A program made the translations under genes and the position numbers. From NCBI GenBank assembly GCA_003605085.1, contig QZKD01000028.1, positions 1 to 64,000 of the forward strand: a stretch of 64,000 bases of DNA, in the 5' to 3' direction. This stretch comes from Acholeplasma sp. (GTDB taxonomy: Bacteria; Bacillota_I; Bacilli_A; Acholeplasmatales; Acholeplasmataceae). Positions within the stretch are counted from its first letter, which is position 1. Every line of letters begins with the position of its first letter. Shown here in pieces: positions 2,936 to 61,277 of this stretch. The notes under the pieces were generated by a model that saw nothing but the letters and a program-made list of their open reading frames with translations, made no database searches and had not been told where the DNA came from.

Positions 2936-5563
2936 ATGACAAAATACGTCTATTTATTTAAAGAAGGTAATGCTTCGATGAAGAACCTTCTCGGTGGTAA
3001 AGGCGCGAACTTAGCGGAAATGACATCCCTTGGCATGCCTGTTCCCCAAGGATTTACCGTCACCACTGAAGCGTGTAATGATTACTATCGTAACAAAAAG
3101 GTAATTGCACCTGAGATTATCGAACAAATCTACAATGCGCTCGCAGTAACAGAAAAAGAAGCAGGAAAGAAATTTGGAGATCCTAATGATCCATTCTTAG
3201 TCTCTGTTCGTTCCGGTGCACGTGCATCCATGCCAGGGATGATGGATACCATCTTGAACCTTGGTTTGAATAACGTTGCTGTTGAAGGTTTGGCTAAACT
3301 TACCAACAACCCACGCTTCGCCTATGACTCTTATCGTCGTTTCATTCAAATGTTCGCCGATGTGGTCATGGAAATTGACAAGAGCAACTTTGAAGAACTC
3401 TTAGAAGAAATGAAACACAAGAAAGGTGTTGAACTCGACACCGAACTTGACGCAAACGATTTAAAGAAACTCGTTGGCGAATTCTTAGTGAAATATGAAC
3501 AACTTAAAGGTGAACCTTTCCCACAAGATCCTAAAGTTCAATTGATCGAAGCAGTGACTGCTGTCTTTAGATCATGGGACAACCCACGTGCGAACACTTA
3601 CCGTCGTTTAAACCACATTCCTTACGAATGGGGAACAGCGGTTAACGTACAAGGCATGGTCTTTGGTAATATGGGTGATGACTCCGGTACTGGTGTGGCT
3701 TTCTCAAGAAACCCATCGACTGGTGAAAATGAACTCTACGGCGAATATCTCTTCAACGCACAAGGCGAAGACGTCGTTGCTGGTATCCGTACACCTAAAC
3801 CTATTTCCGAATTAAAGAATGATAATCCAGCATTATACGATGAATTCTTCAAGATTTCTAAGAAACTTGAAGCGCATTATCGTGACATGCAAGATATGGA
3901 ATTTACTATTGAACGCGGTAAACTCTATATGCTACAAACCAGAAATGGTAAACGTACTGCACAAGCTGCATTAAAAGTAGCCATCGACCTCGTTAAAGAA
4001 GGCGTGCTTTCTGAACAAGAAGCAGTCCTAAAGGTTGAACCTGCACAATTAGACGCTTTACTCCATCCACAATTCAATCCTGAAGCACTTAAAAAAGCAA
4101 GAATCATCACTACAGGTTTAAATGCATCTCCAGGTGCAGCAACCGGTCGTGTGGCATTTACTGCTGAACGTGCCAAAGAAATGAAGAAGAAAGATGGACT
4201 CCCCGTCATTTTAGTTCGTCAAGAAACATCTCCTGAAGATATCGAAGGTATGATTGTTTCCTCAGGAATCCTCACCTCTCGTGGTGGTATGACATCGCAT
4301 GCTGCCGTTGTTGCACGTGGTATGGGTACATGTTGTGTAGCCGGTGCTGGTCAAGTTCATGTCAACGAAAAGAAGAAGGAATTTGAAGTCGGTGGCGAAA
4401 TTTTCAAAGAAGGCGATTGGATTTCATTAGATGGTTCTACGGGTAAAGTTTACGGACAAAAAGTAGATACTCAAGATGCAACCGTCTCTGGCGATTTTGA
4501 AACCTTAATGAAGTGGGCAGACAAATACAGAGCATTAAAGGTTAGAACCAATGCAGATACACCAAGAGATGCGAAAGTCGCATACAAGTATGGTGCTGAA
4601 GGTATTGGATTATGCCGCACCGAACATATGTTCTTTGAACCCGATCGTATTCCTGCCGTTCGTGAAATGATTGTTGCAAAGAACAAGGCAGAACGTGAAA
4701 AAGCATTAGCTAAGTTACTTCCTATGCAAAGAGAAGACTTTATTGGTCTATATAAAGAAATGAAAGGTTACGCCGTGACCATTCGTTACTTGGATCCACC
4801 TCTTCATGAATTCGTACCTACTGATGAACAAGACATTCGCGATCTTGCTAAAGAAATGGGCTTATCCTTCGAAGAACTATCGAAGACGATCAATGATCTT
4901 CATGAAACCAATCCAATGTTAGGACATCGTGGTGTTCGTCTATCTGTGACATATCCTGAAATTGCAGAAATGCAAACCAGAGCGGTCATTGAAGCAGCAA
5001 TCGCAGTCAATAAAGAAGGACTCAATGTCGTTCCTGAAATCATGATTCCTTTAGTCGGTGACATTAAAGAACTTCAATATGTCAAAGATGTCGTTGTCGC
5101 TACTGCAGATAAGATCATTAAAGATGCTGGCGTGAAGTTAGAATACTTAGTCGGTACCATGATTGAAATTCCACGTGCAGCGATTACTGCAGACGTAATT
5201 GCAAAAGAAGCTGAATTCTTCAGTTTCGGTACCAATGACTTAACCCAGATGACCTTTGGATTCTCTAGAGACGATGCGGGTAAGTTCTTAGGTGATTATT
5301 ACGACAAGAAGATTTTTGCCAATGACCCCTTTGCACATATCGACCAAAATGGTGTGGGTAAACTGATGGAAATCGCAGTGAAACTTGGTAAAGAAACAAG
5401 ACCTGATATTAAATTAGGTATCTGTGGCGAACACGGTGGAGATCCTATCTCTGTTGAATTCTGCCATAATATCGGATTAACCTATGTATCTTGTTCACCA
5501 TTTAGAGTACCGATTGCAAGACTTGCAGCGGCACACGCAAACATTAAGAATCCTCGTAAATAA
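2936..5563 (+). CDS. ppdK: Pyruvate, phosphate dikinase
   Basis: This enzyme interconverts pyruvate + ATP + Pi and phosphoenolpyruvate + AMP + PPi. The 875 residues match the family. An N-terminal nucleotide-binding domain (KNLLGGKGANLAEM near residue 15) is followed by the phosphohistidine swivel domain with GGMTSHAAVVARGMG, containing the catalytic His. The C-terminal TIM-barrel PEP domain carries GTNDLTQMTFG and a CGEHGGDP active-site Cys segment. ATG at 2936 is preferred over 2930 because AGAAAGGA at 2921-2928 is then 7 bases away. Next to PPi-PFK it can supply or consume pyrophosphate, linking the two steps. A terminator follows. Confidence 0.96.
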   Translation: MTKYVYLFKEGNASMKNLLGGKGANLAEMTSLGMPVPQGFTVTTEACNDYYRNKKVIAPEIIEQIYNALAVTEKEAGKKFGDPNDPFLVSVRSGARASMPGMMDTILNLGLNNVAVEGLAKLTNNPRFAYDSYRRFIQMFADVVMEIDKSNFEELLEEMKHKKGVELDTELDANDLKKLVGEFLVKYEQLKGEPFPQDPKVQLIEAVTAVFRSWDNPRANTYRRLNHIPYEWGTAVNVQGMVFGNMGDDSGTGVAFSRNPSTGENELYGEYLFNAQGEDVVAGIRTPKPISELKNDNPALYDEFFKISKKLEAHYRDMQDMEFTIERGKLYMLQTRNGKRTAQAALKVAIDLVKEGVLSEQEAVLKVEPAQLDALLHPQFNPEALKKARIITTGLNASPGAATGRVAFTAERAKEMKKKDGLPVILVRQETSPEDIEGMIVSSGILTSRGGMTSHAAVVARGMGTCCVAGAGQVHVNEKKKEFEVGGEIFKEGDWISLDGSTGKVYGQKVDTQDATVSGDFETLMKWADKYRALKVRTNADTPRDAKVAYKYGAEGIGLCRTEHMFFEPDRIPAVREMIVAKNKAEREKALAKLLPMQREDFIGLYKEMKGYAVTIRYLDPPLHEFVPTDEQDIRDLAKEMGLSFEELSKTINDLHETNPMLGHRGVRLSVTYPEIAEMQTRAVIEAAIAVNKEGLNVVPEIMIPLVGDIKELQYVKDVVVATADKIIKDAGVKLEYLVGTMIEIPRAAITADVIAKEAEFFSFGTNDLTQMTFGFSRDDAGKFLGDYYDKKIFANDPFAHIDQNGVGKLMEIAVKLGKETRPDIKLGICGEHGGDPISVEFCHNIGLTYVSCSPFRVPIARLAAAHANIKNPRK

Positions 5564-48915: not shown

Positions 48916-50807
48916 ACACACAAAACGATCAAAAGAAAACTCAAGAAACCAAAGCACCGATGATGCGTGGTCCTCGTGGGATGGTCTATGCTGGTAAAGC
49001 TTCCGATTTCAAGGGAACCATGAAGAAACTCCTTAAGTATTTAAGACCTTATCGATTCCAGATCTTGTTGGCTGGATTTATGGCGATTACAGCAGCTCTA
49101 TTATCTGTGCTTGCCCCTTGGTTTTTAGGACTGATTACCTCTGAGGTTGCTCGTGCATATATCGAAGCTTCAGGACAGTTTAATACTTTAGAATTTGGTC
49201 TCATCGATATTGTTTTTGGTATTCGATTATCGATAGGTGAAATAGCTTTATCCATTGTTCTCATTCATATATCATCCGCTTTGTTAAACTATTTCCAATC
49301 GTTTTTACTCATTGGTATGACGCAAAGTTTAACCTATTCCATGCGTCGTGAGTTATCAGCAAAACTAAACACTTTACCCCTTAAGTTTTTTGATAAAGAG
49401 CAATTTGGTGACCTTTTGGGCCGCATGACCAATGATGTGGAAACAATCAATGCCACATTGACGCAAAGTATCTCAGAAATCTTTCGCTCGATTGCACTCA
49501 TTATCGGAATCTTTGTCATCATGTCTTTCTTGAGTTTACCCCTGATGGCTATTGTTCTTGTGACAACAATTGGATCTTTCTTTGCTGCAAGACAATTCGT
49601 AAAACTATCTCAAAAATACTTTAGAAGTCAAGCAAAATTCTATGGTGAACTCAATGGACATATTGAAGAAACCTATAGTGGACATAACGTGGTGAAGGTC
49701 TTTAATCATCAGAAAAAATCACACCATATCTTTGATAGGATTAATGATGATCTCTATAAAACAAGTGTCAAATCACAATTTATTTCTGGCATCATGATGC
49801 CCGTTCAATTTTTCTTTGGGAACATCGCGTATATCTCCATTGCAGTGGTTGGCGCATTACTCGTCCTGACGGATAACCCATGGCTTGCGATTGAAGTAGG
49901 GATCATTCAAACATTTATTCAATACACACGTCAAATCAACCAACCTGTTCAACAAATCGGTAGCATCGCGAATGTTTTACAATCCACGGCTGCAGCCTCA
50001 GAACGTATCTTTGGTTTACTACACCAAGAAGATGAAAGTCCTGAACGTGATGATTTAACGACGATTTCAAAAATTAAAGGCCATGTGGTCTTTAAGGATG
50101 TTCATTTTGGTTATAACGAAGACGTCGATGTCATTAAAGGTTTTTCAGCAGAAGTGAAGCCAGGTCAAAAAGTTGCAATCGTAGGACCCACGGGTGCTGG
50201 TAAAACAACGATGGTCAATTTACTCATGCGCTTTTATGAAATTAAGTCAGGTAAGATTACTATTGATGGAATTGATATCAGGGACATGAAGCGTAGTGAT
50301 GTTCGCGCTCTCTTTGGCATGGTGCTTCAGGATACGTGGCTCTTTGAAGGTACAGTACGTGAAAATATCATGTATGGATCACTCGATCGCAGTGAAGAAG
50401 AGATGATTGAAAGTGCCAAACTATCACAGTCCCATCACTTCATTGAATCATTATCCAATGGTTATGAGTTCTTACTTTCTGAAGGGGGATCCAATATCAG
50501 TCAAGGTCAACGGCAATTGCTCACGATCTCACGTGCAATGCTTGCTGATCGCCCGATGCTCATTTTGGATGAGGCGACATCATCAGTCGATACCAGAACA
50601 GAAGTTTTGATCCAACACGCCATGGAAGCTCTCATGAAAAATCGAACCAGTTTTGTCATCGCACATCGATTGTCGACGATCAAAGATGCAGACATCATCT
50701 TCGTGATGAATGATGGAAATGTAATTGAACATGGTAACCATAACCAACTCTTGGCGAAAAATGGATTCTATGCTAAGCTTTATTACAGTCAATTTGATAC
50801 CGAATAA
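48912..50807 (+). CDS. Heterodimeric ABC exporter, catalytic subunit (second MarR locus)
   Basis: A 631-residue half-transporter. A polar tail of about 40 residues with MMRGPRGM precedes the membrane domain. The ATPase domain has Walker A GPTGAGKTT, variant signature ISQGQRQL and Walker B MLILDEATSSVD with the catalytic Glu. It is the counterpart of 8029-9906. It starts within the stop of its partner. It is the last chromosomal gene before the tRNA-Arg integration site. Confidence 0.9.
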   Translation: MNTQNDQKKTQETKAPMMRGPRGMVYAGKASDFKGTMKKLLKYLRPYRFQILLAGFMAITAALLSVLAPWFLGLITSEVARAYIEASGQFNTLEFGLIDIVFGIRLSIGEIALSIVLIHISSALLNYFQSFLLIGMTQSLTYSMRRELSAKLNTLPLKFFDKEQFGDLLGRMTNDVETINATLTQSISEIFRSIALIIGIFVIMSFLSLPLMAIVLVTTIGSFFAARQFVKLSQKYFRSQAKFYGELNGHIEETYSGHNVVKVFNHQKKSHHIFDRINDDLYKTSVKSQFISGIMMPVQFFFGNIAYISIAVVGALLVLTDNPWLAIEVGIIQTFIQYTRQINQPVQQIGSIANVLQSTAAASERIFGLLHQEDESPERDDLTTISKIKGHVVFKDVHFGYNEDVDVIKGFSAEVKPGQKVAIVGPTGAGKTTMVNLLMRFYEIKSGKITIDGIDIRDMKRSDVRALFGMVLQDTWLFEGTVRENIMYGSLDRSEEEMIESAKLSQSHHFIESLSNGYEFLLSEGGSNISQGQRQLLTISRAMLADRPMLILDEATSSVDTRTEVLIQHAMEALMKNRTSFVIAHRLSTIKDADIIFVMNDGNVIEHGNHNQLLAKNGFYAKLYYSQFDTE

Positions 50808-50818
50808 CACTTGTAATT

Positions 50819-50850
50819 CAGCAGTGATTACGATATAATAGTCATTGCTG
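50819..50850. promoter_or_regulatory. Dyad spanning the tRNA-Arg promoter
   Basis: TATAAT at 50834-50839 is the -10 for the tRNA gene. Around it, CAGCAGTGATTA and TAGTCATTGCTG are inverted repeats matching at 10 of 12 positions. The dyad could be a hairpin for the upstream ABC mRNA or a protein site. No T tail follows, so it is not a standard terminator. Confidence 0.5.
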
Positions 50851-50860
50851 ACTTACCCAA

Positions 50861-50940
<80 letters not shown>

Positions 50941-50949
50941 AGATTTCAC

Positions 50950-50988
50950 TCCATGACATAACGCAGCAAATGTCATGGATTTCTTTTA
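50950..50988 (+). terminator. Terminator just inside the island, after tRNA-Arg
   Basis: TCCATGACAT and ATGTCATGGA form a perfect 10-bp stem around AACGCAGCAA, followed by TTTCTTTT. It probably ends tRNA transcription now that the native terminator (60417-60438) has been displaced. Confidence 0.75.
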
Positions 50989-51112
50989 ATGATTAAGACA
51001 ACTATTTGTTATCACCTACCATAAGAATATCATTTATAACTTATTGTTGTCAATGTTTTTGGCTAAAAAAGCAACCTATAGTTGTTATTTCGTTTATAAG
51101 GAGGTTTTATGT

Positions 51113-51346
51113 ATGATTGAGCTAAGATTGAAGGAGTTCAGAAAAAAGCTTGGATTAAGCCAAAGAGAAGTATCTGACATAATGAAAATAACACAAGCAT
51201 ATTATTGGAAATGGGAAAAGGGGAAATCATTCCCCAATGCACAACAGATTATCGAATTATGCGATATATTTCAATGCACTCCCAATGATCTATTTGGTAT
51301 ACATGGTGTTTATTCTGCTTCTATGAATGATCTTGATCAAAGCTGA
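51113..51346 (+). CDS. XRE-family helix-turn-helix regulator
   Basis: A 77-residue Cro/CI-type DNA-binding protein. The helix-turn-helix core is LGLSQREVSDIMKITQAYY (about residues 13-31), followed by WEKGKSFPNAQQIIELCDIF, the standard XRE layout. ATG at 51113 is 8 bases after AAGGAGG (51098-51104); the frame from 51044 is rejected. It is convergent with the integrase pseudogene and overlaps it by 10 bases. It probably controlled island genes. Confidence 0.85.
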   Translation: MIELRLKEFRKKLGLSQREVSDIMKITQAYYWKWEKGKSFPNAQQIIELCDIFQCTPNDLFGIHGVYSASMNDLDQS

Positions 51347-52211
51347 TCGAGTTTATTGATTCGATCCTGATATGTTTTTTTGACATGCTTCGTCGATACG
51401 TGAAGATAGCGTTCTGTTGTCTTTATATTCCTATGACCTAAGATGTGCATCACCGAAGCGATGTCTGCACCCGCCTCAACAAGGGTTGTCGCAGTGGTAT
51501 GTCTGAACATGTGCGGATGAAGTTTTTTCAGCTGCAGATCATGCTTGACAAATCTCAATATATATCGAATGTAATCATAATTCGCTGGGCGATCTTTATC
51601 GATGTTATGCAGCAAGTACTTGTGATCATGATTAATCTTAAGCATATCTTTCACTGCAGGGACTCCGAAAGCATCACTGATATAGAGATGCGATCCTCTT
51701 TATTTTTTGTCTGAGTCAGAAAGATCTCTTTCACATCTAGATTGACATTCTTTTTTTTAATGAACATTATTTCCTGAATACGTGCTCCTGTATCAGCTAG
51801 AAGAGATAGAAAGCACTTATAATACGCTCCGTAAGTGATGACTGTTGGGAATTCTCTGATATACTTACGTATACGTTTAATCACATCTTTCTCAAGCACA
51901 TCGAAAGTTTTATTTCTTTCGTTTAGTTTGTCGATGGATTGAAGATAGGGATAATCGATTCCCATGTGTTCATTCATTCTTTCAAGCATCCGATATTATT
52001 ATTGATGGTGACATACTCACACGTTTTTTTCATGTGGAACATGTATTCACTAATCAAAGCATTATCGACTTATTCAACCTTTACGTCAACATGCTATCGA
52101 AACATAGTGCTGAAAGTTTTCCAAATGATTCTTGTAAAATCGCCATGTACAATGTGAATGGCAGATCTTCACCTTATGCAAATACTCTAAAACAACTGTT
52201 TTAATTTGCAT
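51337..52211 (-). pseudogene. Tyrosine recombinase (integrase), multiply disrupted
   Basis: Reading the minus strand from ATG 52211 gives the core-binding domain (MQIKTVVLEYLHKVK... to SIAC), then frame changes. The next piece, VDNALISEYMFHMKKTC and onward, has an in-frame TAA before it. A further shift near 51980 leads to MNEHMGIDYPYL and the catalytic Arg segment ADTGARIQEIM. Another shift at about 51685 leads to DAFGVPAVKDML and the active-site box HPHMFRHT, LGHRN and the Tyr in ERYLHVS. Joined together, they make a normal integrase of about 290 residues. At least three frame changes and one stop show it is dead. Its place beside the tRNA fits the island. Confidence 0.88.
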
Positions 52212-52347
52212 TCTTATTCTTCCCGTGAATTATTTACTGATATAATTATCAACCATATACAATGAATAATATCCGACAAAAACTGTTGATTATATAGACA
52301 ATATATAATTAAATAAATTATAATTATCTTAAAGTGGAGGAATAAAA

Positions 52348-52698
52348 ATGAGTTGGCTTAGAAAGAATAGAATTGAAAAAGAACAAGACACATCACAAGT
52401 ACAAAATTTGCAGAGTAGTGTCAATCATGTTGAAATGTCACCTACTGAAAAGATGCTTATTGAACTTTCAGAATTAGACAAATTAGTTAGAAAAGAAATC
52501 AAAAATTTCTCTCCAGAAGAAATAAATCATATACGTGGATTATTAATTTTTAATAAAAGGTTAATCACATATCTAGCACATCATGATGTAAAATTCACAA
52601 ATTTATGTACTCCAGAGCAAGATGAAGTTTCCACCGAAGACATGACAATATTCATGCAATTTCTTGCAATTCTTGCTCAAATATTAGGAGGTAAATAA
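52348..52698 (+). CDS. Hypothetical soluble protein
   Basis: A 116-residue hydrophilic protein with an N-terminal basic start (MSWLRKNRIEKEQ), a helical middle (TEKMLIELSELDKLVRKEI) and a hydrophobic C-terminus (FMQFLAILAQIL). ATG at 52348 follows GTGGAGGAA. Its stop overlaps the next gene (TAATG), so the two are coupled and may form a two-component system such as an effector with a membrane partner. No family recognised. Confidence 0.6.
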   Translation: MSWLRKNRIEKEQDTSQVQNLQSSVNHVEMSPTEKMLIELSELDKLVRKEIKNFSPEEINHIRGLLIFNKRLITYLAHHDVKFTNLCTPEQDEVSTEDMTIFMQFLAILAQILGGK

Positions 52699-53084
52699 TG
52701 AATAGTTTCATTAACAAGATTAACAAATTATTTGACTTAAAAGTTTTGTTGTGGAGTTTTTTTGTCTCCTTAACATTTATTTTTCTTGGGATAATATTAT
52801 GGAAGTTAGGTATAAGACCTATTTCAAATGCAGGTTTTTTATTATTTTGGATTATTTCTCTAGACATTCCGTTATATCTATTCATGTTTTTATACAATCG
52901 AATGACTATAGAACGCAGACGGAAAGTATTTATACTCATTGAGCTTGAATTTACACTCTTAGTTAATCTCAATCAATATCTTAATTCTTCATCATTTGAT
53001 TTGTTTTTATCTTTTTTGGCAATTCATGTAGTTATCGATCAACTTACAAACTATAACTATTTTCTCGAATCTAAAAGTCGATAG
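52698..53084 (+). CDS. Hypothetical membrane protein
   Basis: A 128-residue protein with three or four membrane segments (about 17-36, 45-70, 78-95 and 100-118). It is translated from the overlap with the preceding gene. Homologues not recognised. The immediate downstream DNA is an IS remnant. Confidence 0.58.
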   Translation: MNSFINKINKLFDLKVLLWSFFVSLTFIFLGIILWKLGIRPISNAGFLLFWIISLDIPLYLFMFLYNRMTIERRRKVFILIELEFTLLVNLNQYLNSSSFDLFLSFLAIHVVIDQLTNYNYFLESKSR

Positions 53085-53132
53085 TGTAAAAAATAATAAT
53101 TGACGATAATATGTATATATAAATATTGGATT

Positions 53133-53358
53133 AGTATGGTTCAAAGTATGAGTAAAGGTGAATATCCATTTGACAATTCCTGTGTGGAAAGTTTTTTTGT
53201 CTATTTAAATAAAGAATGCATCTATCGATGATCTGATAAAGATTCATCTGAAATCAACAAAGATTAATTTGAATTTATAGAACTCTTCGATAACAGAATG
53301 AGGATCCACTCAACCTTAAATTAGATGACACCCATGAGTTATAGAATTAAAAATTAGA
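53133..53358 (+). pseudogene. IS3-family transposase remnant (C-terminal end)
   Basis: Frame starting at 53133 reads SMSKGEYPFDNSCVESFF, then LNKECIYR, then FEFIELFDNRMRIHSTLN and MTPMSYRIKN. This is the end of the DDE domain of IS3/IS150-type OrfB, including the catalytic Glu (VESFF) and the YNxxRxHS-like box. Four in-frame stops (TGA, TAA, TAG, TAG) break it, and the front two thirds are missing. No terminal repeats are visible. The 53085-53536 gap holds only this. Confidence 0.82.
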
Positions 53359-53536
53359 CTTTTACATCGTCTTCTTAAATGACATCATTTGTGTGAATAT
53401 GAACCATTAGGATCATCTGTTAAAAAATCACATAATCCAAAACAAGACATGCATATTAACGCTATTGATAATAGATTTTATAAACATAACATAAACCAGT
53501 AGATTAACTTAATTTATAAATAATAAGGAGAAGAAA

Positions 53537-53884
53537 ATGAAAAAAACACATGTATTATTGATAGTAGTTGTGCTTACAATTTTTATCACGATTATGCTTT
53601 CGTTTGATATTAGAAGAATAGAAAATACAATTGAAGAATATGAAGAAACAATAGACCGCTATACAACTGATGCGGGAGGTTCATTAGTTTTTGGCATTGA
53701 TGAATTTGAGAATGTATATCTAAATAACATCATTATTCAAAGACAAGAGTTAATAATTTACAGTAACAACCTATATCTACTTAGAAACTTCTCTATGGCA
53801 GTTTTAAGCTCTTTGAGCACCTATCTAATAGGGTTATTAATAATAAGTAAATTTAAGAAGAATAAATTTCATAACGAACTATAG
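53537..53884 (+). CDS. Hypothetical membrane protein, two segments
   Basis: A 115-residue protein with an N-terminal membrane anchor (residues 6-24), an extracytoplasmic or cytosolic acidic loop (IEEYEETIDRYTTDAGG) and a second segment (about 85-104) ending in a Lys-rich tail. ATG at 53537 follows AAGGAGAAG. No family recognised. Confidence 0.58.
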   Translation: MKKTHVLLIVVVLTIFITIMLSFDIRRIENTIEEYEETIDRYTTDAGGSLVFGIDEFENVYLNNIIIQRQELIIYSNNLYLLRNFSMAVLSSLSTYLIGLLIISKFKKNKFHNEL

Positions 53885-54260
53885 TGGTTTTCCAAAATGG
53901 CGTGAATATGATATAGTGATGAAATTCATTAAGAATCAATACATTTAGTGTAATAATAAGGCAAATAGGATATATCTAATTTAAAGCGATTATTCTTCAA
54001 AAGGGATTGAATTTTATGTATGGGAAAACATAAAACCTACATGTCACTAGATTAATTCAAAAAGTATCAACAAGATAGACATATTGAAGAGCTAAACGAA
54101 GTTAGCTATTATGCAGTGCTAAACCATTAGTTAGAAGAACTAAAACAAATGGTGAACGCTTTATGGCATGCAAGAACTATCCACATTGTAAATTCACAAA
54201 ATAGTTTGATTAACAAAAGAATTTTAACATTAATTTGTTGAAAGAATCAAAGTATGCTGA
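53885..54260. other. Non-coding stretch with decayed gene remains
   Basis: No intact gene. Short open pieces separated by stops suggest an old coding region (GIEFYVWENIK at about 54010-54040). The best piece is the zinc-ribbon remnant at 54112-54204. Nothing else recognisable. Confidence 0.5.
54112..54204 (+). pseudogene. Topoisomerase-type zinc-ribbon remnant
   Basis: Frame from 54112 to a TAG at 54202 reads CSAKPLVRRTKTNGERF then MACKNYPHCKFTK. This is the C-terminal half of a C4 zinc ribbon like that ending the HNH protein at 58741-59700 (LIRRHGKNGDFYGCSNFPKC). An upstream stop shows it is detached from any start. It is probably the tail of a lost gene similar to that protein. Confidence 0.7.
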
Positions 54261-54381
54261 AATAGTGTTTGACAGTTTGTTAACTTAAGGTCTGTTTTAT
54301 TGAATGCCTAGTAAGAAAAGCTTAAAATTAATAGTCACTCAACATTAGTGTACAGTTACAATATACAAACACATGCATAAC
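54261..54381 (+). repeat. Direct repeat copy A (unit boundary)
   Basis: About 120 bases, roughly three quarters identical by eye to 54864-54984 in the same register and orientation. The best-kept part is the core TAGTGTACAGTTACAAT at 54346-54362. The 603-base unit between the cores of copies A and B holds one gene (54468-54875). Confidence 0.75.
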
Positions 54382-54467
54382 GCCAAATTTGGTTTATATA
54401 ATAAGTTCATAATTATAAATCATCTATGAAGTGATATTTTAATGAACATGTATTAAGGTGGGGGCAA

Positions 54468-54875
54468 ATGAAAAACAGATTCAAAGCTTTATTTATTTTA
54501 TTACTGGCAGCTTTACTTTTACCAGAGATTCGGTTAAGTTTGTTTGCTCTTACATTATTAGTTGTCGCAACATTTATTATTTATAGACTAATTGATATTA
54601 AAATACTTGCCATCATAATTGCTTTGGTCGTACTTAATTATCTCAATTCCATTTTTACTATCATAATATATTATGCAAGTCCAAGTGACAGTATCATATT
54701 CCTAGATGCAGCACTAACCATTTTTAGTTATGCATCAATTACAGGTATAGTTGATTTGTTAATTGAATCATGGATTTCATCTCAAGCAATTGGGTTTCAT
54801 ATTACTGTTGTTGCAACTGTTACAGTTGTTGGAATAGTAGCTATGGTGCTTGCTATTAAAAATAATAGCATATGA
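54468..54875 (+). CDS. Hypothetical polytopic membrane protein
   Basis: A 135-residue, almost wholly hydrophobic protein with four membrane segments (about 7-37, 44-72, 80-98 and 108-130). ATG at 54468 has GGTGGGGG just before it. Its TGA stop (54873-54875) lies inside repeat copy B, so gene and repeat form one module. No family recognised. Small single-gene modules like this resemble cargo carried between replication origins. Confidence 0.58.
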   Translation: MKNRFKALFILLLAALLLPEIRLSLFALTLLVVATFIIYRLIDIKILAIIIALVVLNYLNSIFTIIIYYASPSDSIIFLDAALTIFSYASITGIVDLLIESWISSQAIGFHITVVATVTVVGIVAMVLAIKNNSI

Positions 54876-54984
54876 CAGATTATTAACGTATGGTATGTTT
54901 TATTGGATGTTAAGAAAGAGAAATGTTAAAATATACAGTTTTTCGGCATAGTGCATAGTTACAATTCACTAACAACGACATAAC
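54864..54984 (+). repeat. Direct repeat copy B with stem-loop core
   Basis: The core TAGTGCATAGTTACAAT is at 54949-54965. TAGTG (54949-54953) can pair with CACTA (54967-54971), leaving a 13-base loop that contains AGTTACAA. It lies downstream of the rep gene stop. It is related to copy A over about 120 bases and to copy C mainly over the core and the following CACTA. Confidence 0.75.
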
Positions 54985-55002
54985 AATACATAACTAATAG
55001 AC

Positions 55003-55034
55003 AAAGTGGGAAAGCATTTGCTTGCTCTCCAACT
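55003..55034 (-). terminator. Possible terminator of rep
   Basis: On the minus strand, GTTGGAGAGC and GCTTTCCCAC pair at 9 of 10 positions just past the rep stop. The following T-run is short (TTTGTC), so strength is uncertain. Confidence 0.45.
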
Positions 55035-55039
55035 TTTTA

Positions 55040-56155
55040 TTACTTAAGTAATTCTTCGATTCCAATGTGTATGATATTATGCGATAATGATGAATCCGAA
55101 TAGAAATCCTTGAATTCAGCATCGCTCATGTCTTCATCGAACCAATCTCTTTCAAGTCTTTTTAAACTCTTAGATAAGTTAAACCTTCCTTCTGTAAAAA
55201 ACCTTGTCTTTTTTTGATTTTTAAAGAAATCTCTAAGAGAATTATAAGAAATTACATCGACCTTTTTTGATTCTTTGTTATCTTTAAAGTGCATAACACC
55301 CTTATTAGTTCTTCTTAGGAAAGCCTTATAGGTAAGCTCTTGCTCCTGTTGTATTTTCTTATATTGTTCATCCAATCCAATATTTGTAATAATGTACACC
55401 TTAGTATAGCAGGCAACACGGTTCTCATATCTAGCTGGCAAACGGAATGGATAGATATCTAGGTAATGAAGCATATCATCAATCTTTAATGAGCTTCTAA
55501 ATTCTTCGAAAACTATGACATCTTCACCTTGATATTGGTCGAATGGATGTGTGTAATCGGTTATCCTGTAGACATTTTCAAATCCATGCTTTTCAAGTAC
55601 ATATCGCGTCTTTCCTGTTCCAGGGTCACCAAAGATGTATGTTACCTCTAGATTTCTTACTGCATTCGCAAAATTCTCCTCGACAATTTCTTGTCTTATA
55701 GATTTGATGTTTAAGCGATACCTTAAATATGCAGATGGATACTTTTCCCTAATTTGTGAATCACTTGCATCATCTTTAATCATCTCATAGATTTCTTCCA
55801 AATCAGTTCTTTGACCCTGCTGTGGTGGTGTTCCATACTTCACAGAACCACTTATTCGACCCTTTCCCTTAGAGCAATACTCAATTACTTTCTGTAATGA
55901 ATTTGTTACTGGTTCGATGTTTGCCCTAGGAAATCCTTCGAGGATTCTTTTGAATGAATTTGCATTCTCGAAGCAACACAAGATGTGATGTTGCAATGTC
56001 TTTTTTTCACCTTCTTCCAATTGAAAAATGAAATACCTCACATCATGAAATGCCATGATACTTTTGATTAGGAACTCATCTTTATAAATTTCTGTTGATG
56101 CGTAGTTTATTGTAATTAACCAATTCCTAAATCTTTGAGCATTTTGCTCACCCAT
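55040..56155 (-). CDS. rep: CRESS-type rolling-circle replication initiator (HUH endonuclease + SF3 helicase)
   Basis: A 371-residue Rep like those of bacterial pCRESS plasmids, phytoplasma plasmids and eukaryotic circular Rep-encoding ssDNA viruses. Endonuclease domain: motif I NWLITIN (residues 11-17), motif II LQHHI (54-58) and motif III IEYCSK (91-96) with catalytic Tyr93. SF3 helicase domain: Walker A GDPGTGKT (176-183), Walker B VIVFEEF (213-219), motif C IITN (255-258) and the Arg-rich LRRTNKGVMHF (280-290). Motif II differs from HxH/HxQ forms. The frame is intact. ATG at 56155 follows AAAGGAT on the minus strand. It sits between origin-like repeats B and C. Confidence 0.88.
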   Translation of the reverse strand: MGEQNAQRFRNWLITINYASTEIYKDEFLIKSIMAFHDVRYFIFQLEEGEKKTLQHHILCCFENANSFKRILEGFPRANIEPVTNSLQKVIEYCSKGKGRISGSVKYGTPPQQGQRTDLEEIYEMIKDDASDSQIREKYPSAYLRYRLNIKSIRQEIVEENFANAVRNLEVTYIFGDPGTGKTRYVLEKHGFENVYRITDYTHPFDQYQGEDVIVFEEFRSSLKIDDMLHYLDIYPFRLPARYENRVACYTKVYIITNIGLDEQYKKIQQEQELTYKAFLRRTNKGVMHFKDNKESKKVDVISYNSLRDFFKNQKKTRFFTEGRFNLSKSLKRLERDWFDEDMSDAEFKDFYSDSSLSHNIIHIGIEELLK

Positions 56156-56207
56156 ACTTAAAATCCTTTACGCCATAGATTTTATAGTGAATAAAGCAAT
56201 TTGTATA

Positions 56208-56231
56208 TAGTGCACAGTTACAATCACACTA
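56208..56231 (+). repeat. Origin-like repeat copy C upstream of rep
   Basis: The core TAGTGCACAGTTACAAT (56208-56224) is followed by CACACTA. TAGTG (56208-56212) pairs with CACTA (56227-56231) around a 14-base loop containing GTTACAA. It lies 53 bases upstream of the rep start codon, where CRESS-type origins normally are. TTAC in the loop matches the nick context TT/AC of such origins. Confidence 0.7.
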
Positions 56232-56610
56232 CAAGGCGATCGGATACACAGAAGTGCGCATAAATAATACTTAATAACTCCCTATCAACAAGTAATAGAC
56301 ATCTAGCATGTATTTTTTTTATTTGAATATCAAATCACGAATAATAATTGTCATTTTTAGTCGGGTAAGACTGAAAATTCTTATGTTGGTAAATCATAAC
56401 CATCTTTTCTTTGTGTCACACTCATAAAATTTAAATGTGATTCTCATTATGACTGATTCTGTAGTAAGATATAATTATAGGATGGCGTTTATAATCGCAC
56501 AGTTGAATAAATCACAAGAGCACAATAATAAAAAAGCATGATATTGGTTAATCTTTTACAGCAATATTTTACGTAATTTAAATTCGATATTATTTTCGGG
56601 AGTGACGCTT
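56232..56610. other. Intergenic region with a tRNA-Phe-like relic
   Basis: No gene. The only structured signal is at 56369-56401, where GACTGAAAATTC and TTATGTTGGTA follow the tRNA-Phe fragment at 58061-58083 with mostly C-to-T and G-to-A changes. The remainder is AT-rich without clear signals. A -10-like TATAAT is at about 56470. Confidence 0.4.
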
Positions 56611-57306
56611 ATGAAAAGGATTCTATTCAGCATAACATGTTCATTCTTTTTGCTCGCATTATTTTCTTGTTCTAAAACAACCGATAGCCAAGAGAGCGAA
56701 TTAATTTCTATTCCGGACTTGAGTGGTGTCAGTCAAACATCTGCTGAAGAATTGTTATTAAATAATTCTTTAATTCCAGTAATAAAATATGAATATAATA
56801 ATTCTGTAGATGAAGGGCTAATAATTCGCACAGACCCAGATGCGTTCGAAGAAGTTGCCATTGATACAAGAATAACGTTATATGTAAGTAAAGGTATATG
56901 GCCATCAATTATTTATTCAAAATCCTCTACAATTCATTGGAGTAATGTATCGGGCTCTTCTGGCGATGAGTATGATTTTTATAATCCGGAAATTGCAAAT
57001 GGAACTATCCAAATCGAAATAAATGTAGCATATAATTCTTCCTATGAAATTGAGTGGATAGATGATGACAATGATGGATATGGATTTGGCGCTGCATCAC
57101 TATCAGCTGACTTCGATAATGATGCATATTTGTGGATTGAATATGAAACAAAATCAATTATATCAGGAGTGGAGCAAACCATAATAATATATGTTGATGC
57201 TGACGAGCTAAGAGTAAATGAACCTAATGTATTGTATATCAAATTGTATGTTAAATTGAATGATGAATCATATGATATTGAAATAAATTTTGAAATCACG
57301 TGGTAA
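56611..57306 (+). CDS. Lipoprotein with one PASTA domain
   Basis: A 231-residue exported lipoprotein. The signal sequence has lipobox LFSC with Cys at about residue 20. Residues 33-96 form one PASTA domain: IPDLSGVSQTSAEELL, then VDEGLIIRTDP and ITLYVSKG. PASTA domains bind peptidoglycan fragments or act as spacers in wall proteins. The C-terminal 130 residues are beta-rich with an acidic DDDNDGYGFGA loop that could bind calcium. ATG at 56611 is 8 bases from GGGAG; the GTG at 56602 lies within that site. It is island cargo, possibly surface-active. Confidence 0.78.
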   Translation: MKRILFSITCSFFLLALFSCSKTTDSQESELISIPDLSGVSQTSAEELLLNNSLIPVIKYEYNNSVDEGLIIRTDPDAFEEVAIDTRITLYVSKGIWPSIIYSKSSTIHWSNVSGSSGDEYDFYNPEIANGTIQIEINVAYNSSYEIEWIDDDNDGYGFGAASLSADFDNDAYLWIEYETKSIISGVEQTIIIYVDADELRVNEPNVLYIKLYVKLNDESYDIEINFEITW

Positions 57307-57395
57307 TTTATTAGATAAAAAAGCCTTTAGAGTATTAAACAAAACTCATGCTTAATTTTTTTTAGGTTGCACCAAATGACTGAAAATCATTTGTT

Positions 57396-58004
57396 TTGGA
57401 CAATTATGAAAATTATAAATGGATGAAATGTAATACACATGTACTATTTAAGTTTACTTTTGATTTTGGGAGGATTAGAATAACGAAAAGGTATATTTTT
57501 CAGATCTTAATTGTTTTTATAACACTAGTATTATTAAGTATTGCATCAATAGTCATGTATTATTTTTGGATTCTTGATATAAGAATCTATTGGAATATAA
57601 ATATCAAATATATACCAATTGTTTTTTTATTGTTAAACGCGAGTCTATTCATAGAGTTATATATAAAGAAAAAAAGAAAGCTGAATGTTCGAGATCGATT
57701 TTCACTTGTTCTATGGTATCTTCCTATGACATTTTCTCTATTTTTTATACTCACCCGATTTGAAGTGTTTAGACTTCATCCCCCAGGTCCAGCACAAACA
57801 GAAAATATTGTTATGTACCTTATTTTCTTTTTGATTATGATATTTATTAGCTCTATTTTTATTAAATATAGAAATAGAGAACTAACTCGAACCAAATGGA
57901 TTATCTATTTTGCATGCAACATTATGTTCTCGTGCCTTTTATGGGCATTTAGCTATTTTTGCACATGGGCTGCTGCTTTTGGGCTTGCTATGAGTGGTAT
58001 ATGA
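57396..58004 (+). CDS. Hypothetical membrane protein
   Basis: A protein of up to 202 residues with five predicted membrane segments and a short loop FRLHPPGPAQTEN. The start is uncertain: TTG 57396 or ATG 57423, neither with a good ribosome site. No family recognised. It lies between tRNA-Phe-like sequences (57378 and 58059). Confidence 0.5.
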   Translation: MDNYENYKWMKCNTHVLFKFTFDFGRIRITKRYIFQILIVFITLVLLSIASIVMYYFWILDIRIYWNINIKYIPIVFLLLNASLFIELYIKKKRKLNVRDRFSLVLWYLPMTFSLFFILTRFEVFRLHPPGPAQTENIVMYLIFFLIMIFISSIFIKYRNRELTRTKWIIYFACNIMFSCLLWAFSYFCTWAAAFGLAMSGI

Positions 58005-58058
58005 ACGTACAATTTATAGATTACTTAGGTGTATTTGTGTACAAGATTCAAGCAGTTT

Positions 58059-58107
58059 CGGACTGAAAATCCTTGTGTCGGTAGTTCGATTCTGCCCGGA
58101 GGCACCA
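58059..58107 (+). repeat. 3' part of a tRNA-Phe (GAA), attachment-site scar
   Basis: CGGACTGAAAATCC carries the anticodon loop CTGAAAA of tRNA-Phe. It is followed by a variable loop, a T arm (GGTAG-TTCGATT-CTGCC), an acceptor strand CGGAGGC, discriminator A and CCA. The 5' half is absent, so it is not a gene. The same length and endpoints as the Arg repeat (anticodon region to CCA) mark it as a recombination site left by another integrated element. Confidence 0.85.
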
Positions 58108-58257
58108 CTTTCACCTTTGCATACTATTTTTTCTAATTTTCTGATTTTTCCAAGTGCTCGGATGTTTTTGTGTTGCTTAATGATATTGTAAATTTGAAAT
58201 GTTTATGTATTTTTTCCATGATGTAATTACGATAAATAAACTAATCGAGGGGATATC

Positions 58258-58437
58258 ATGAAAGTTCGAAATAAATTTAGCAAATTGAGAATGACTTCAT
58301 TGATTTGTGTTGTATTAGTGCTTGTTGGCCTTTTTGGTGGTATATATCTAGGAAATAGCACATTAATTTTTATTGGTTTAGCAGCTTTGATTGTTGAAAT
58401 GATTGTAAGAGTTATACGCTTTTTATATAGAGATTAA
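58258..58437 (+). CDS. Small membrane protein (59 residues)
   Basis: ATG at 58258 follows GAGGGGAT. The protein has a basic N-terminus (MKVRNKFSKLRM) and two hydrophobic segments with a short GNST turn between them, then a basic tail. It is 16 bases before the next small gene, so the two form a pair. No family recognised. Confidence 0.6.
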   Translation: MKVRNKFSKLRMTSLICVVLVLVGLFGGIYLGNSTLIFIGLAALIVEMIVRVIRFLYRD

Positions 58438-58452
58438 AAGAGGTGAATTTAT

Positions 58453-58614
58453 TTGAAAGAATACAAAGTTATTGATTTTAGTACGAATATACCCGAAAAA
58501 ATTGAAAATACGCTTAATGAATATTGCAATAACGGGTGGGAAGTAGTTTCTATCAATTTCGGCTCAACTTACAACGGAATTATTGCCTTTGTAACTTTTG
58601 TTAGAGTTCAATAG
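58453..58614 (+). CDS. DUF4177-like small protein (53 residues)
   Basis: Starts at TTG 58453, 6 bases after AGAGGTGA. It reads KEYKVIDFSTN, then LNEYCNNGWEVVSINFGS and AFVTFVRVQ. The pattern tyrosine-lysine-valine, Asn-Gly-Trp-Glu-Val and a final beta strand is that of DUF4177 proteins, which are small and of unknown function. It follows the 59-residue membrane protein gene. Confidence 0.65.
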   Translation: MKEYKVIDFSTNIPEKIENTLNEYCNNGWEVVSINFGSTYNGIIAFVTFVRVQ

Positions 58615-58740
58615 CTAATGACATGATGCTTTTTAGTTTTGAACGATTTCTTTTCTACTTAAATGTAGATATTTTTTTCTTATATTTTATTGATTTAATT
58701 AAAATTTGGTTATAAAACAATTATCAAAGGAGAAGAAAAC

Positions 58741-59700
58741 ATGCCAGAAATATTAATAATCGTCGCTATATTATTCGTATTAGTATTTCTTGTATTTTTT
58801 ATACGTGGAAGTATAGTTAACTTAAAATTAATGGAGCACAGTAAAAAGATCGAGCAAATTATAAGTATGAATAAAAGTTTTGATTTTAATCCTTTACCCA
58901 AATCACTTAGCATTAGTAGATATTATGACAATAAAAGTAGCTTTAATAAAATCGAGCCAGGATATCTCATGTCTTCAGAGATTCGAAATAATCTAGAAGA
59001 ATTTTCAAAATACATCTTACAAGTTAAAGAGAATCGTGAAAACAAGCAAATCTATATCAAAAAGGTTCAAGAAATCATATCACAACAAATAGATATTGAT
59101 TATAAAGAGTTGAAAATATCGAGGAATGAATATATAAATCGTGAAAAAAAGTTACTAAGCAATTTAATACTTAATCCTGTAATTAATCTCAAACTTTGTG
59201 TATTTATGTCTTATTCTTCTCCAAAGGGACAAGTAAATTTATCAAAAAGTGATTGTTTCACATTTGATGATATTGTTGCTTCATTTGAAAGTGTGTCCCG
59301 AACGTATTTAGATAAAAATACTTACTCAAAATTAGCCTCTGTCGAAAGAGGAGAGGTAAGTGATTCCTTGAGATATGACGTACTCAATCGAGATAATTTC
59401 AAATGTGTTATTTGTGGTGCTTCATCTCATGAAGGTGCACGACTCCATGTGGATCACATCATTCCAATTTCAAAGGGAGGAAAAAGTATACCAAGTAACT
59501 TAAGAACCCTGTGTGAAAGATGTAATGTTGGGAAGTCTGATAAAATAGAGGATTTATATGTTGATGAACAACTGTTGAAGAATCAGAAGATTTTATTATG
59601 CCCTAAATGTGGTGGTGAATTGATCAGGCGTCACGGTAAGAACGGTGATTTTTACGGTTGTTCAAATTTTCCTAAATGCAAATATACTCAAAATGTATAA
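58741..59700 (+). CDS. Membrane-anchored HNH endonuclease with C4 zinc ribbon
   Basis: A 319-residue protein: an N-terminal membrane segment (residues 4-24), a helical middle (30-205), an HNH domain and a zinc ribbon. The HNH domain reads NRDNFKCVICG, then HVDHIIPISKGG and LCERCNVGKSD, with paired CxxC ligands and the catalytic His. The tail CPKCGGELIRR and FYGCSNFPKC is a topoisomerase-type DNA-binding ribbon (about 280-319). ATG at 58741 follows AAAGGAGAAG. A DNA nuclease tethered at the membrane fits a defence role against incoming DNA, but this is inferred. Confidence 0.82.
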   Translation: MPEILIIVAILFVLVFLVFFIRGSIVNLKLMEHSKKIEQIISMNKSFDFNPLPKSLSISRYYDNKSSFNKIEPGYLMSSEIRNNLEEFSKYILQVKENRENKQIYIKKVQEIISQQIDIDYKELKISRNEYINREKKLLSNLILNPVINLKLCVFMSYSSPKGQVNLSKSDCFTFDDIVASFESVSRTYLDKNTYSKLASVERGEVSDSLRYDVLNRDNFKCVICGASSHEGARLHVDHIIPISKGGKSIPSNLRTLCERCNVGKSDKIEDLYVDEQLLKNQKILLCPKCGGELIRRHGKNGDFYGCSNFPKCKYTQNV

Positions 59701-59780
59701 TTATTTATTGTGCATCTCTTTTAATTTTGAATAGATCGGCTTTGGTTAATAATACAATAGAAGAAAAACAGGTGAAATTA

Positions 59781-60269
59781 ATGAAAGATAGAGTAACTGC
59801 GGCTTTATTAGCTATTTTCTTAGGGGGACTTGGTGTTCATAAGTTTTATATCGGGAAGACGCAATCAGGTATAATTTACCTTATATTTTGTTGGACAGGT
59901 ATACCGACAATTATAGGGTTCATTGAAGGCATTATTTATTTAACACAAACAGATAAGGAATTTCATATTCAACAAGGTATAGCCCATGTTGTATATAATG
60001 AGAGCAGCAATAATATTGGAGGTTCTGTTGGTGCAGCCGATGAAATAAGAAAATACAAAGATTTATATGAAGAAGGAGTAATAACGCAATCTCAATTTGA
60101 AAAGAAGAAAAACGAATTGCTGGGTGTAATTTCCTCAGATGGTGAGGGCGACATGAAAGACGGAAGATTAAATCCAGTATTGAAAATATTGATATGGATA
60201 TTTGTAGGCAGTGCGCTAGTGCTTATTATCATCTCGTTTTTTGCAGCATTAATTTGGGGAAATGCATAA
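59781..60269 (+). CDS. TM2-domain protein with SHOCT module
   Basis: A 162-residue membrane protein. The TM2 domain covers residues 4-60: AIFLGGLGVHKFYIGK and a second segment with GIPTIIGFIEGIIYL. A linker leads to a SHOCT hairpin (YKDLYEEGVITQSQFEKKK, about 97-116) and a third membrane segment near the end. ATG at 59781 is 5 bases from AGGTGA; the open frame from 59676 overlaps the HNH gene and is rejected. The function of TM2 proteins is poorly known. Confidence 0.78.
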   Translation: MKDRVTAALLAIFLGGLGVHKFYIGKTQSGIIYLIFCWTGIPTIIGFIEGIIYLTQTDKEFHIQQGIAHVVYNESSNNIGGSVGAADEIRKYKDLYEEGVITQSQFEKKKNELLGVISSDGEGDMKDGRLNPVLKILIWIFVGSALVLIIISFFAALIWGNA

Positions 60270-60358
60270 AACATAAATGCACAAAACATCATATTAGAGA
60301 TTTCCGCTTTATGAGGCTATATTTCGTTTATCTAACCTTTACCAAAGATGGAAAAATA

Positions 60359-60407
60359 CCTTCTAAGCCGTCGGTCGGGGGTTCGAATCCCTCGTGCATC
60401 GCCACCT
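60359..60407 (+). repeat. Right attachment repeat of the island
   Basis: 49 bases identical to 50892-50940, the 3' part of tRNA-Arg plus CCT. The preceding bases (AAAATA) are unrelated to a tRNA, so this copy is only the duplicated end. It marks the right limit of the island. Confidence 0.93.
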
Positions 60408-60416
60408 TATAACTAG

Positions 60417-60438
60417 ACCCCGACCACGGGGTTTTTTT
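60417..60438 (+). terminator. Original tRNA-Arg terminator
   Basis: ACCCCG-ACCA-CGGGGT with a seven-T tail starts 9 bases after the right repeat. It would have ended the tRNA transcript before the island inserted. Confidence 0.85.
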
Positions 60439-60442
60439 ATTC

Positions 60443-60467
60443 ATAAAAAAAGCCTTCTTTAGAAGGC
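60443..60467 (-). terminator. Terminator of the HAD phosphatase gene
   Basis: On the minus strand GCCTTCT-AA-AGAAGGC is followed by seven T. The stop codon of the gene is in the hairpin loop. Confidence 0.82.
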
Positions 60468-61277
60468 GTTTAAGTGGAAATAATCATTTAAAAAGTGAGC
60501 AACCGCATCTTCATCATGCGTTTTTTCTGTGATTTGTTTAGCGACCGCTTTGAGTTCAGACACTGCATTTTGCATGGCAACACCAAGTCCTGCATCCCGA
60601 ATCATTTCAACATCATTGATGCCATCTCCTAAGGCAATCCATTGTTCTTGTGCCATGCCATAGTAATCAAGCAAGTATTTAATCGCAGATGATTTTGAAA
60701 TGTGTTTTAGGTAAACCTCATAAACTGCAGCCCCATTATCAACACCCCAAAGACGTGTTGAAAGTGTATGACCAAAATGCTCACGTATAAAGTTTTCAAA
60801 AACTTCTTGTTTATCAGCTTCGATGAGATAGACTAATCCTGTAGGTTCAACATCAAAATCGGTGTGTTCAGCTTCAATCACTTTTGAACTCGTCAGCCCA
60901 CTAAAGAAAGCCTCAAGTTTTTTATCGTATTTATACGCATAAACCACATCATCAATTGAAAAGAATGTGGTTACGATAAAAGGTTTACTGAACCGAAAAA
61001 TCTCGTGCATCATCTGAACTGGAATATAGGTACGCTGTTTAGCAAATGAAGCATCTTTTGGATTTTCGATGGATCCACCATTATCGGTGACAAGTGGTGT
61101 ATCAAGACCAAGTTCTTCATATTTTGAAATCGCGCCACTATAAGGACGACCGGTCGCAAGTACAATGATATGACCTTTAGATTTTAATAGTTGTAATACT
61201 TTCTTTGTTTTTGCTGTTATTTCCCCGTAATGGTTAAGTGTAGTTCCATCGAGGTCACAGGCGATAAGATATGTCAT
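60459..61277 (-). CDS. Cof-type HAD-superfamily phosphatase
   Basis: A cytosolic 272-residue hydrolase of the Cof/YidA subfamily IIB. Motif I is CDLDGTTLN with the nucleophilic Asp, motif II is LATGRPYS, and motif IV is GDGINDVEMI. A C2 cap domain lies between. These enzymes remove phosphate from sugar phosphates or cofactors; the substrate is not predictable. ATG at 61277 follows GGGGTG; the frame to 61334 is rejected. It is the first chromosomal gene right of the island. Confidence 0.92.
   Translation of the reverse strand: MTYLIACDLDGTTLNHYGEITAKTKKVLQLLKSKGHIIVLATGRPYSGAISKYEELGLDTPLVTDNGGSIENPKDASFAKQRTYIPVQMMHEIFRFSKPFIVTTFFSIDDVVYAYKYDKKLEAFFSGLTSSKVIEAEHTDFDVEPTGLVYLIEADKQEVFENFIREHFGHTLSTRLWGVDNGAAVYEVYLKHISKSSAIKYLLDYYGMAQEQWIALGDGINDVEMIRDAGLGVAMQNAVSELKAVAKQITEKTHDEDAVAHFLNDYFHLNAF

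Follow-up and report, generated by a model that had tools for sequence, protein, structure and literature searches.

A 603-bp repeat-bounded segment in an integrated pCRESS-like plasmid of Acholeplasma sp. and its possible diverged Rep sites

Is a short stretch of DNA that is bounded by direct repeats and lies beside a replication gene a satellite of that gene, or a part of the element around it? The question was raised by positions 54,261 to 54,984 of contig QZKD01000028.1 of Acholeplasma sp. (assembly GCA_003605085.1), of which the first 64,000 nucleotides were analyzed and are called the window here. A first-pass annotation had described two repeat copies, A and B, with a period of 603 bp, a single membrane-protein gene and no rep between them, and a neighboring unit from B to a third copy, C; it proposed that the 603-bp unit might be a satellite mobilized in trans by Rep, or cargo acquired when one-ended rolling-circle replication ran past the origin. 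We tentatively favored another answer, to which we give slightly less than an even chance: the 603-bp segment would be cargo inside a decayed integrative plasmid, and A, B, and C would be diverged sites, or origins, of its Rep.

Repeat copies A and B and the segment between them

Copy A (54261..54381) and copy B (54864..54984), both on the + strand, were aligned without gaps at an offset of 603, and 79 of 121 positions were identical. This pair was the top 121-base self-match of the 8-kb region, whereas the best pairs in 30 first-order shuffles of the region had 60–66 identities. Chance similarity was ruled out by these shuffles, and the repeat of about 120 bases with its period of 603 was upheld. 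The left edge of the similarity was abrupt, identity changing from 10–35% to 75% exactly at 54261/54864, and the right edge was gradual, with similarity fading past about 54381/54984. The copies have diverged to an identity of about 65–73%. Considering that a plain DNA search misses even the partner copy, relatives of A and B were sought with a sequence model of both. In the host genome this model had two matches only, A and B themselves (113 and 111 bits), and among 60 relatives the best matches reached at most 17 bits, with E of 0.01 or worse per genome. Two candidate identities were rejected: A, B, and C as attachment sites (they are not tRNA-derived, and the borders of the surrounding island lie elsewhere), and structured RNA (Rfam matched tRNA, plus one weak match in attR only).

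As had been stated, there is no rep between the copies. The gene that lies there (54468..54875, + strand) encodes a 135-aa membrane protein with no known relatives; its stop falls 12 bases inside B, its GC content varies with codon position as in coding DNA, and it is equipped with a Shine-Dalgarno-like AAGGTGGGGG. The protein is strongly hydrophobic, and hydropathy gives several membrane segments, the earlier count of four being tentative. Pfam, PHROGs, NCBIfam, and PADLOC gave no relative, and neither did tblastn against phages and plasmids, a single pattern scan of IMG/VR, or a search of 395 class genomes; a match in G045 (28% over a hydrophobic stretch) was taken as chance. The gene was thus not encountered without the repeat in the class genomes, phages, and plasmids. 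The 603-bp unit occupies a single locus, with one copy in the genome, and none was found in relatives, phages, plasmids, or IMG/VR. The search of related genomes, from which evidence of a satellite had been expected, recovered no second membrane gene of this kind and no further repeat, and because both are absent from every other genome searched, no mobility is visible. Although real, the unit is thus an orphan, a part of a virus-like integrated plasmid of 9.5 kb.

The island and its Rep protein

Perfect 49-bp copies of the 3' end of a tRNA-Arg gene flank an island of 9.47 kb that contains the unit, and this larger context, together with a dead integrase, had been left out of the earlier interpretation. 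The left border, attL (50892..50940, + strand), is the 3' end of tRNA-Arg(tct), placed by ARAGORN at 50861–50937, and the right border, attR (60359..60407, + strand), is a partial copy of this gene; the 49-bp repeat consists of the last 46 bases of the tRNA gene and the next 3. Three congeners (G012, G017, and G001) have an empty site: 50941–60358 is absent, and the flanking ABC transporter and HAD hydrolase genes are joined at tRNA-Arg. At this place the nearest relative (G011) carries a different sequence of about 0.6 kb. The border repeats and the empty site show site-specific integration with direct repeats, as in pCRESS.

Within the island, an XRE-type HTH regulator (51113..51346, + strand) had tblastn matches to the elements L020, L017, and L019 and resembles the HTH adjoining Rep in Izemoplasma elements. 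A XerC-like tyrosine integrase (51337..52100, − strand; Pfam Phage_integrase) is dead: it is frameshifted into two ORFs in different frames, with a disrupted N-terminal part, and its homology to the integrases of L016, L017, L019, and L020 runs across the frames. This integrase also bears on the idea that the unit is an integron-like gene cassette with an attC. One small gene followed by a repeat of about 120 bp would suit such a cassette, but A and B, read directly, have no RYYYAAC/GTTRRRY ends, there is no attC-like folding, and the sole integrase is the broken XerC-like one next to the tRNA attachment site; lacking an integron integrase as well, the cassette was rejected as scarcely credible.

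Other parts of the island are also remnants. A C-terminus with several stops (53137..53360, + strand), seen in six-frame translation, is presumably that of an IS3-like transposase. Directly upstream of copy A, a translated gene remnant (54110..54200, + strand) ends in a topoisomerase-type zinc ribbon, recognized by eye. The remaining genes encode a PASTA lipoprotein, an HNH nuclease, a TM2-like protein, and small proteins without known relatives. Two partial tRNA-Phe 3' halves (56369–56391 and 58061–58107) also occur inside the island, of which the second is 89% identical over 35 bases to the tRNA-Phe beside the L016 element; the element may once have resided in a tRNA-Phe gene and kept these pieces of it.

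The first-pass annotation was right that a Rep of the rolling-circle kind adjoins the repeat. This Rep (55040..56155, − strand; 371 aa), encoded by an intact ORF, joins an HUH-type endonuclease to an SF3 helicase. Its best plasmid match was RepA of p4M, and its best phage matches were inovirus records with Zot; a profile search matched circovirus Rep structures (e.g., 7lar), and there was a weak PF00910 match. The alignment gave the motifs RNWLITIN, YCSK, GDPGTGKT, and IVFEEF. Elements with such proteins are known as pCRESS and are mostly site-specifically integrated (Kazlauskas et al. 2019; PMC6668415). The HUH endonuclease, the SF3 helicase, and the YxxK form of motif III that mark them were all present, and because motif III is YxxK (YCSK), the protein fits the p4M-like groups pCRESS1–3 of that study. 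By its sequence, we class the element as an integrated pCRESS-like plasmid with a Rep of the p4M-like kind. Motif II reads Q-H-H, in contrast to H-T-H or H-H-Q in relatives and to the H-hydrophobic-H or H-x-Q expected of pCRESS, and because it is neither H-x-H nor H-x-Q, the activity of Rep is uncertain. In a tree of 88 rows, Rep joined L016, L017, and L020, all from Mycoplasmatota (support 98/88), as the longest branch of this group. Among 88 genomes of the window's family, it was present in this genome only. The host element is of an ordinary kind; the arrangement of A, B, and C is unusual and unproven.

The core of the repeats and its possible roles

A 16-base core, TAGTGNAYAGTTACAA, had exactly three copies in the 1.72-Mb assembly, in A (54346), B (54949), and C (56208). 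When one mismatch was allowed, there were still three matches, each perfect and each on the + strand, while about 0.02 perfect matches were expected genome-wide. All three lie in a single orientation within 1.9 kb around Rep and nowhere else in the genome, so the association of the core with Rep is real. The core of A is TAGTGTACAGTTACAAT (54346–54362), that of B is TAGTGCATAGTTACAAT (54949–54965, with a 5-bp stem), and C, which precedes the start of Rep by 52 bp, has TAGTGCACAGTTACAATCACACTA (56208..56231, + strand), likewise with a 5-bp stem. It is the best-conserved part of the three copies (15 of 17 positions identical across all). The flanks of C matched A and B at chance level, leaving only some 16–17 bases in common; therefore, the earlier statement that A–B and B–C are bounded by the same repeat holds for the core and fails for the flanks of C.

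To place C among relatives, we can compare the region upstream of Rep in loci L003–L095. A hairpin with a NANTATTAC loop was found within 1.5 kb upstream of Rep in 84 of the 91 loci with a related Rep, on the Rep strand in 83 of these 84, and within the same length downstream in only 5 of 77; an origin is therefore expected upstream. This hairpin is an empirical criterion for the Rep family, outside the published definition of pCRESS, and such a circovirus-like hairpin upstream of rep is unmentioned in the main text of PMC6668415. That nearly every Rep relative has a circovirus-like TAGTATTAC hairpin before rep is a broader by-product of our analysis. In L017 and L020, a GTGTAAAGG / TAGTATTAC / CCTTTACAC hairpin lies about 50 bp upstream of Rep, and C occupies the corresponding position. 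A hidden canonical origin was also sought in the window: no NANTATTAC hairpin was found in 50800–60500, and the island had no NAGTATTAC, nor any variant of it with a single mismatch and a stem of at least 5. Some variants were seen among the relatives. Upstream of Rep in L067, L077, and L088, the hairpin stems have GAAGTTG...CAACTTC-like arms resembling recombinase arms, an odd combination with a replication loop. In L016, an ORF between the TAGTATTAC loop and rep (3427–3840) repeats a Rep-like N-terminus (KDWLITLNYCSN) and is possibly a truncated Rep paralogue.

We tentatively take A, B, and C to be sites of Rep that serve as its origins, for several reasons. Three perfect cores in one orientation lie within 1.9 kb of Rep although almost none was expected; the core contains [C/T]AGT--TAC, which reads as the family nonanucleotide [T/C/A]AGTATTAC less two bases; C stands before Rep where the loops of L017 and L020 stand; and the borders, the empty site, and the grouping of Rep with Izemoplasma elements support an element of this kind. 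Other observations weaken the same reading: the island lacks NAGTATTAC, the core is on the + strand opposite to the Rep strand (−) when all but one of the hairpin-bearing relatives have theirs on the Rep strand, the stems are only 4–5 bp and A, B, and C folded no better than shuffles, the flanks of C match neither A nor B, and motif II is Q-H-H. The locus would then be a decayed plasmid in tRNA-Arg, with a pCRESS-like Rep and a tyrosine integrase, in which the 603-bp segment is internal cargo. The three copies would descend from one short Rep-associated site, most likely as diverged recognition or nick sites, C keeping the place before rep where an origin usually lies, and A and B representing a longer 120-bp version whose duplication left the small membrane gene in between.

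Alternatively, A, B, and C may be regulatory sites that take no part in replication, such as operators of a regulator of the island. In B and C the core forms an imperfect palindrome, TAGTG...CACTA, which would serve as a repressor site; C adjoins a promoter-like −35 (56207) of the minus-strand rep gene, and the XRE regulator has a homologue next to Rep in relatives. However, the palindrome is imperfect in A and its half-sites are spaced 13 or 14 bases apart among the copies, which operators seldom show; the genes on either side of B converge on it, so that no promoter is called for there; and promoter-like matches occurred at the shuffled rate. We consider operators unlikely, though the main rival, and prefer diverged Rep sites because C is at the origin position and the core resembles the family motif.

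The remnants described above (the IS3-like transposase, the zinc-ribbon gene, and the partial tRNA-Phe copies) and the 3' end of a + strand gene upstream of both A and B would also suit an old segmental duplication, or the ends of a transposable element, with the core in C a functionless leftover. Yet the core alone is common to the three sites and is their best-conserved part, and neither terminal inverted repeats nor target duplications were seen, nor any further copies. Such an origin of the repeats is improbable.

If the cores are diverged Rep sites and Rep still nicks AGTT/AC on the + strand, B–C (rep, about 1.26 kb) and A–B (cargo, 603 bp) could each be released as a single-stranded circle, and the dead integrase would not be needed. 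A shift of the origin to a short xAGTTAC site in three direct repeats, from which Rep releases two different circles, is a long shot. If true, one circle would carry the membrane-protein gene only, and the element would be a bacterial counterpart of multicomponent CRESS viruses with satellites. Many single-stranded DNA viruses of eukaryotes have been proposed to stem from integrated pCRESS elements of bacteria, and one that keeps several Rep sites and splits rep from cargo would show, in a bacterial setting, by what route satellites and multipart genomes come about.

Comparison with satellites and related elements

The idea that a helper's Rep replicates a second unit through an origin common to both is familiar from the RS1 satellite of the filamentous phage CTXphi and from the alpha-, beta-, and deltasatellites of begomoviruses (PMC12193555). 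A comparable case was found in Bacterium D16-56 (L030 1–2127, L139; RAYY01000051), where two tandem units of about 1.03 kb precede an inovirus-type prophage that carries a Rep of this family. The units are 88% alike and have no rep and no notable ORF. Just two pieces link them to the prophage, its origin hairpin (46 bp, 87%) and a stretch that resembles an attachment site (73 bp, 82%); they are likely a satellite of a filamentous phage whose Rep is of the CRESS type. Because these rep-less units carry the origin of the helper prophage, satellites of this Rep family are plausible. Could the 603-bp unit be a true satellite, which Rep excises or copies in trans from sites A and B and which reintegrates elsewhere? 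Like the D16-56 units, it has no rep; it carries a single cargo gene, and the core of about 17 bases common to A, B, and C may be an origin shared with the helper. Unlike them, it is shorter, has a cargo ORF, and lacks canonical hairpins and an attachment-like site; and unlike RS1 and the begomovirus satellites, it shows no trace of being excised or encapsidated and is present just once. The single locus, the failure of the searches elsewhere, and the A/B identity, which means no recent copying of the unit, make a true satellite improbable, and one-ended replication as the source of the cargo is conjecture.

Two related loci hold composite arrangements at tRNA genes. In L017 (1457–12262), five tandem copies of the tRNA-Arg(tct) 3' end mark off four units, some as small as 445 bp with one membrane-protein gene. 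A lone small gene for a membrane protein or lipoprotein fills two of the four, and only the last contains Rep and the integrase; this cassette-like array at a tRNA gene, like the D16-56 units, keeps the satellite idea from being far-fetched for this Rep family. In L020 (19–733 and 7950–8024), an 88-bp tRNA-Trp 3' duplication, together with what is left of a second integrase, points to a stack of two elements at a single tRNA gene.

The element as a whole differs from the p4M-like cluster pCRESS1–3 (PMC6668415) in having three unusual cores in place of a canonical hairpin origin, a dead integrase, and the Q-H-H motif II. It agrees with this cluster in the HUH + SF3 Rep with YxxK (YCSK), in site-specific chromosomal integration with a tyrosine integrase, and in the match to RepA of p4M. 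The closest Reps (41–51%) are those of Ca. Izimaplasma HR2 (L017), Tenericutes MAG22 (L016), and Mycoplasmatota zrk6 (L020). These elements have an intact Int, a TAGTATTAC loop upstream of Rep, and no A/B-like repeat, unlike the one in the window; all three carry HTH, Rep, and a XerC-like Int in that order beside tRNA genes, and L017 uses the same tRNA-Arg(tct).
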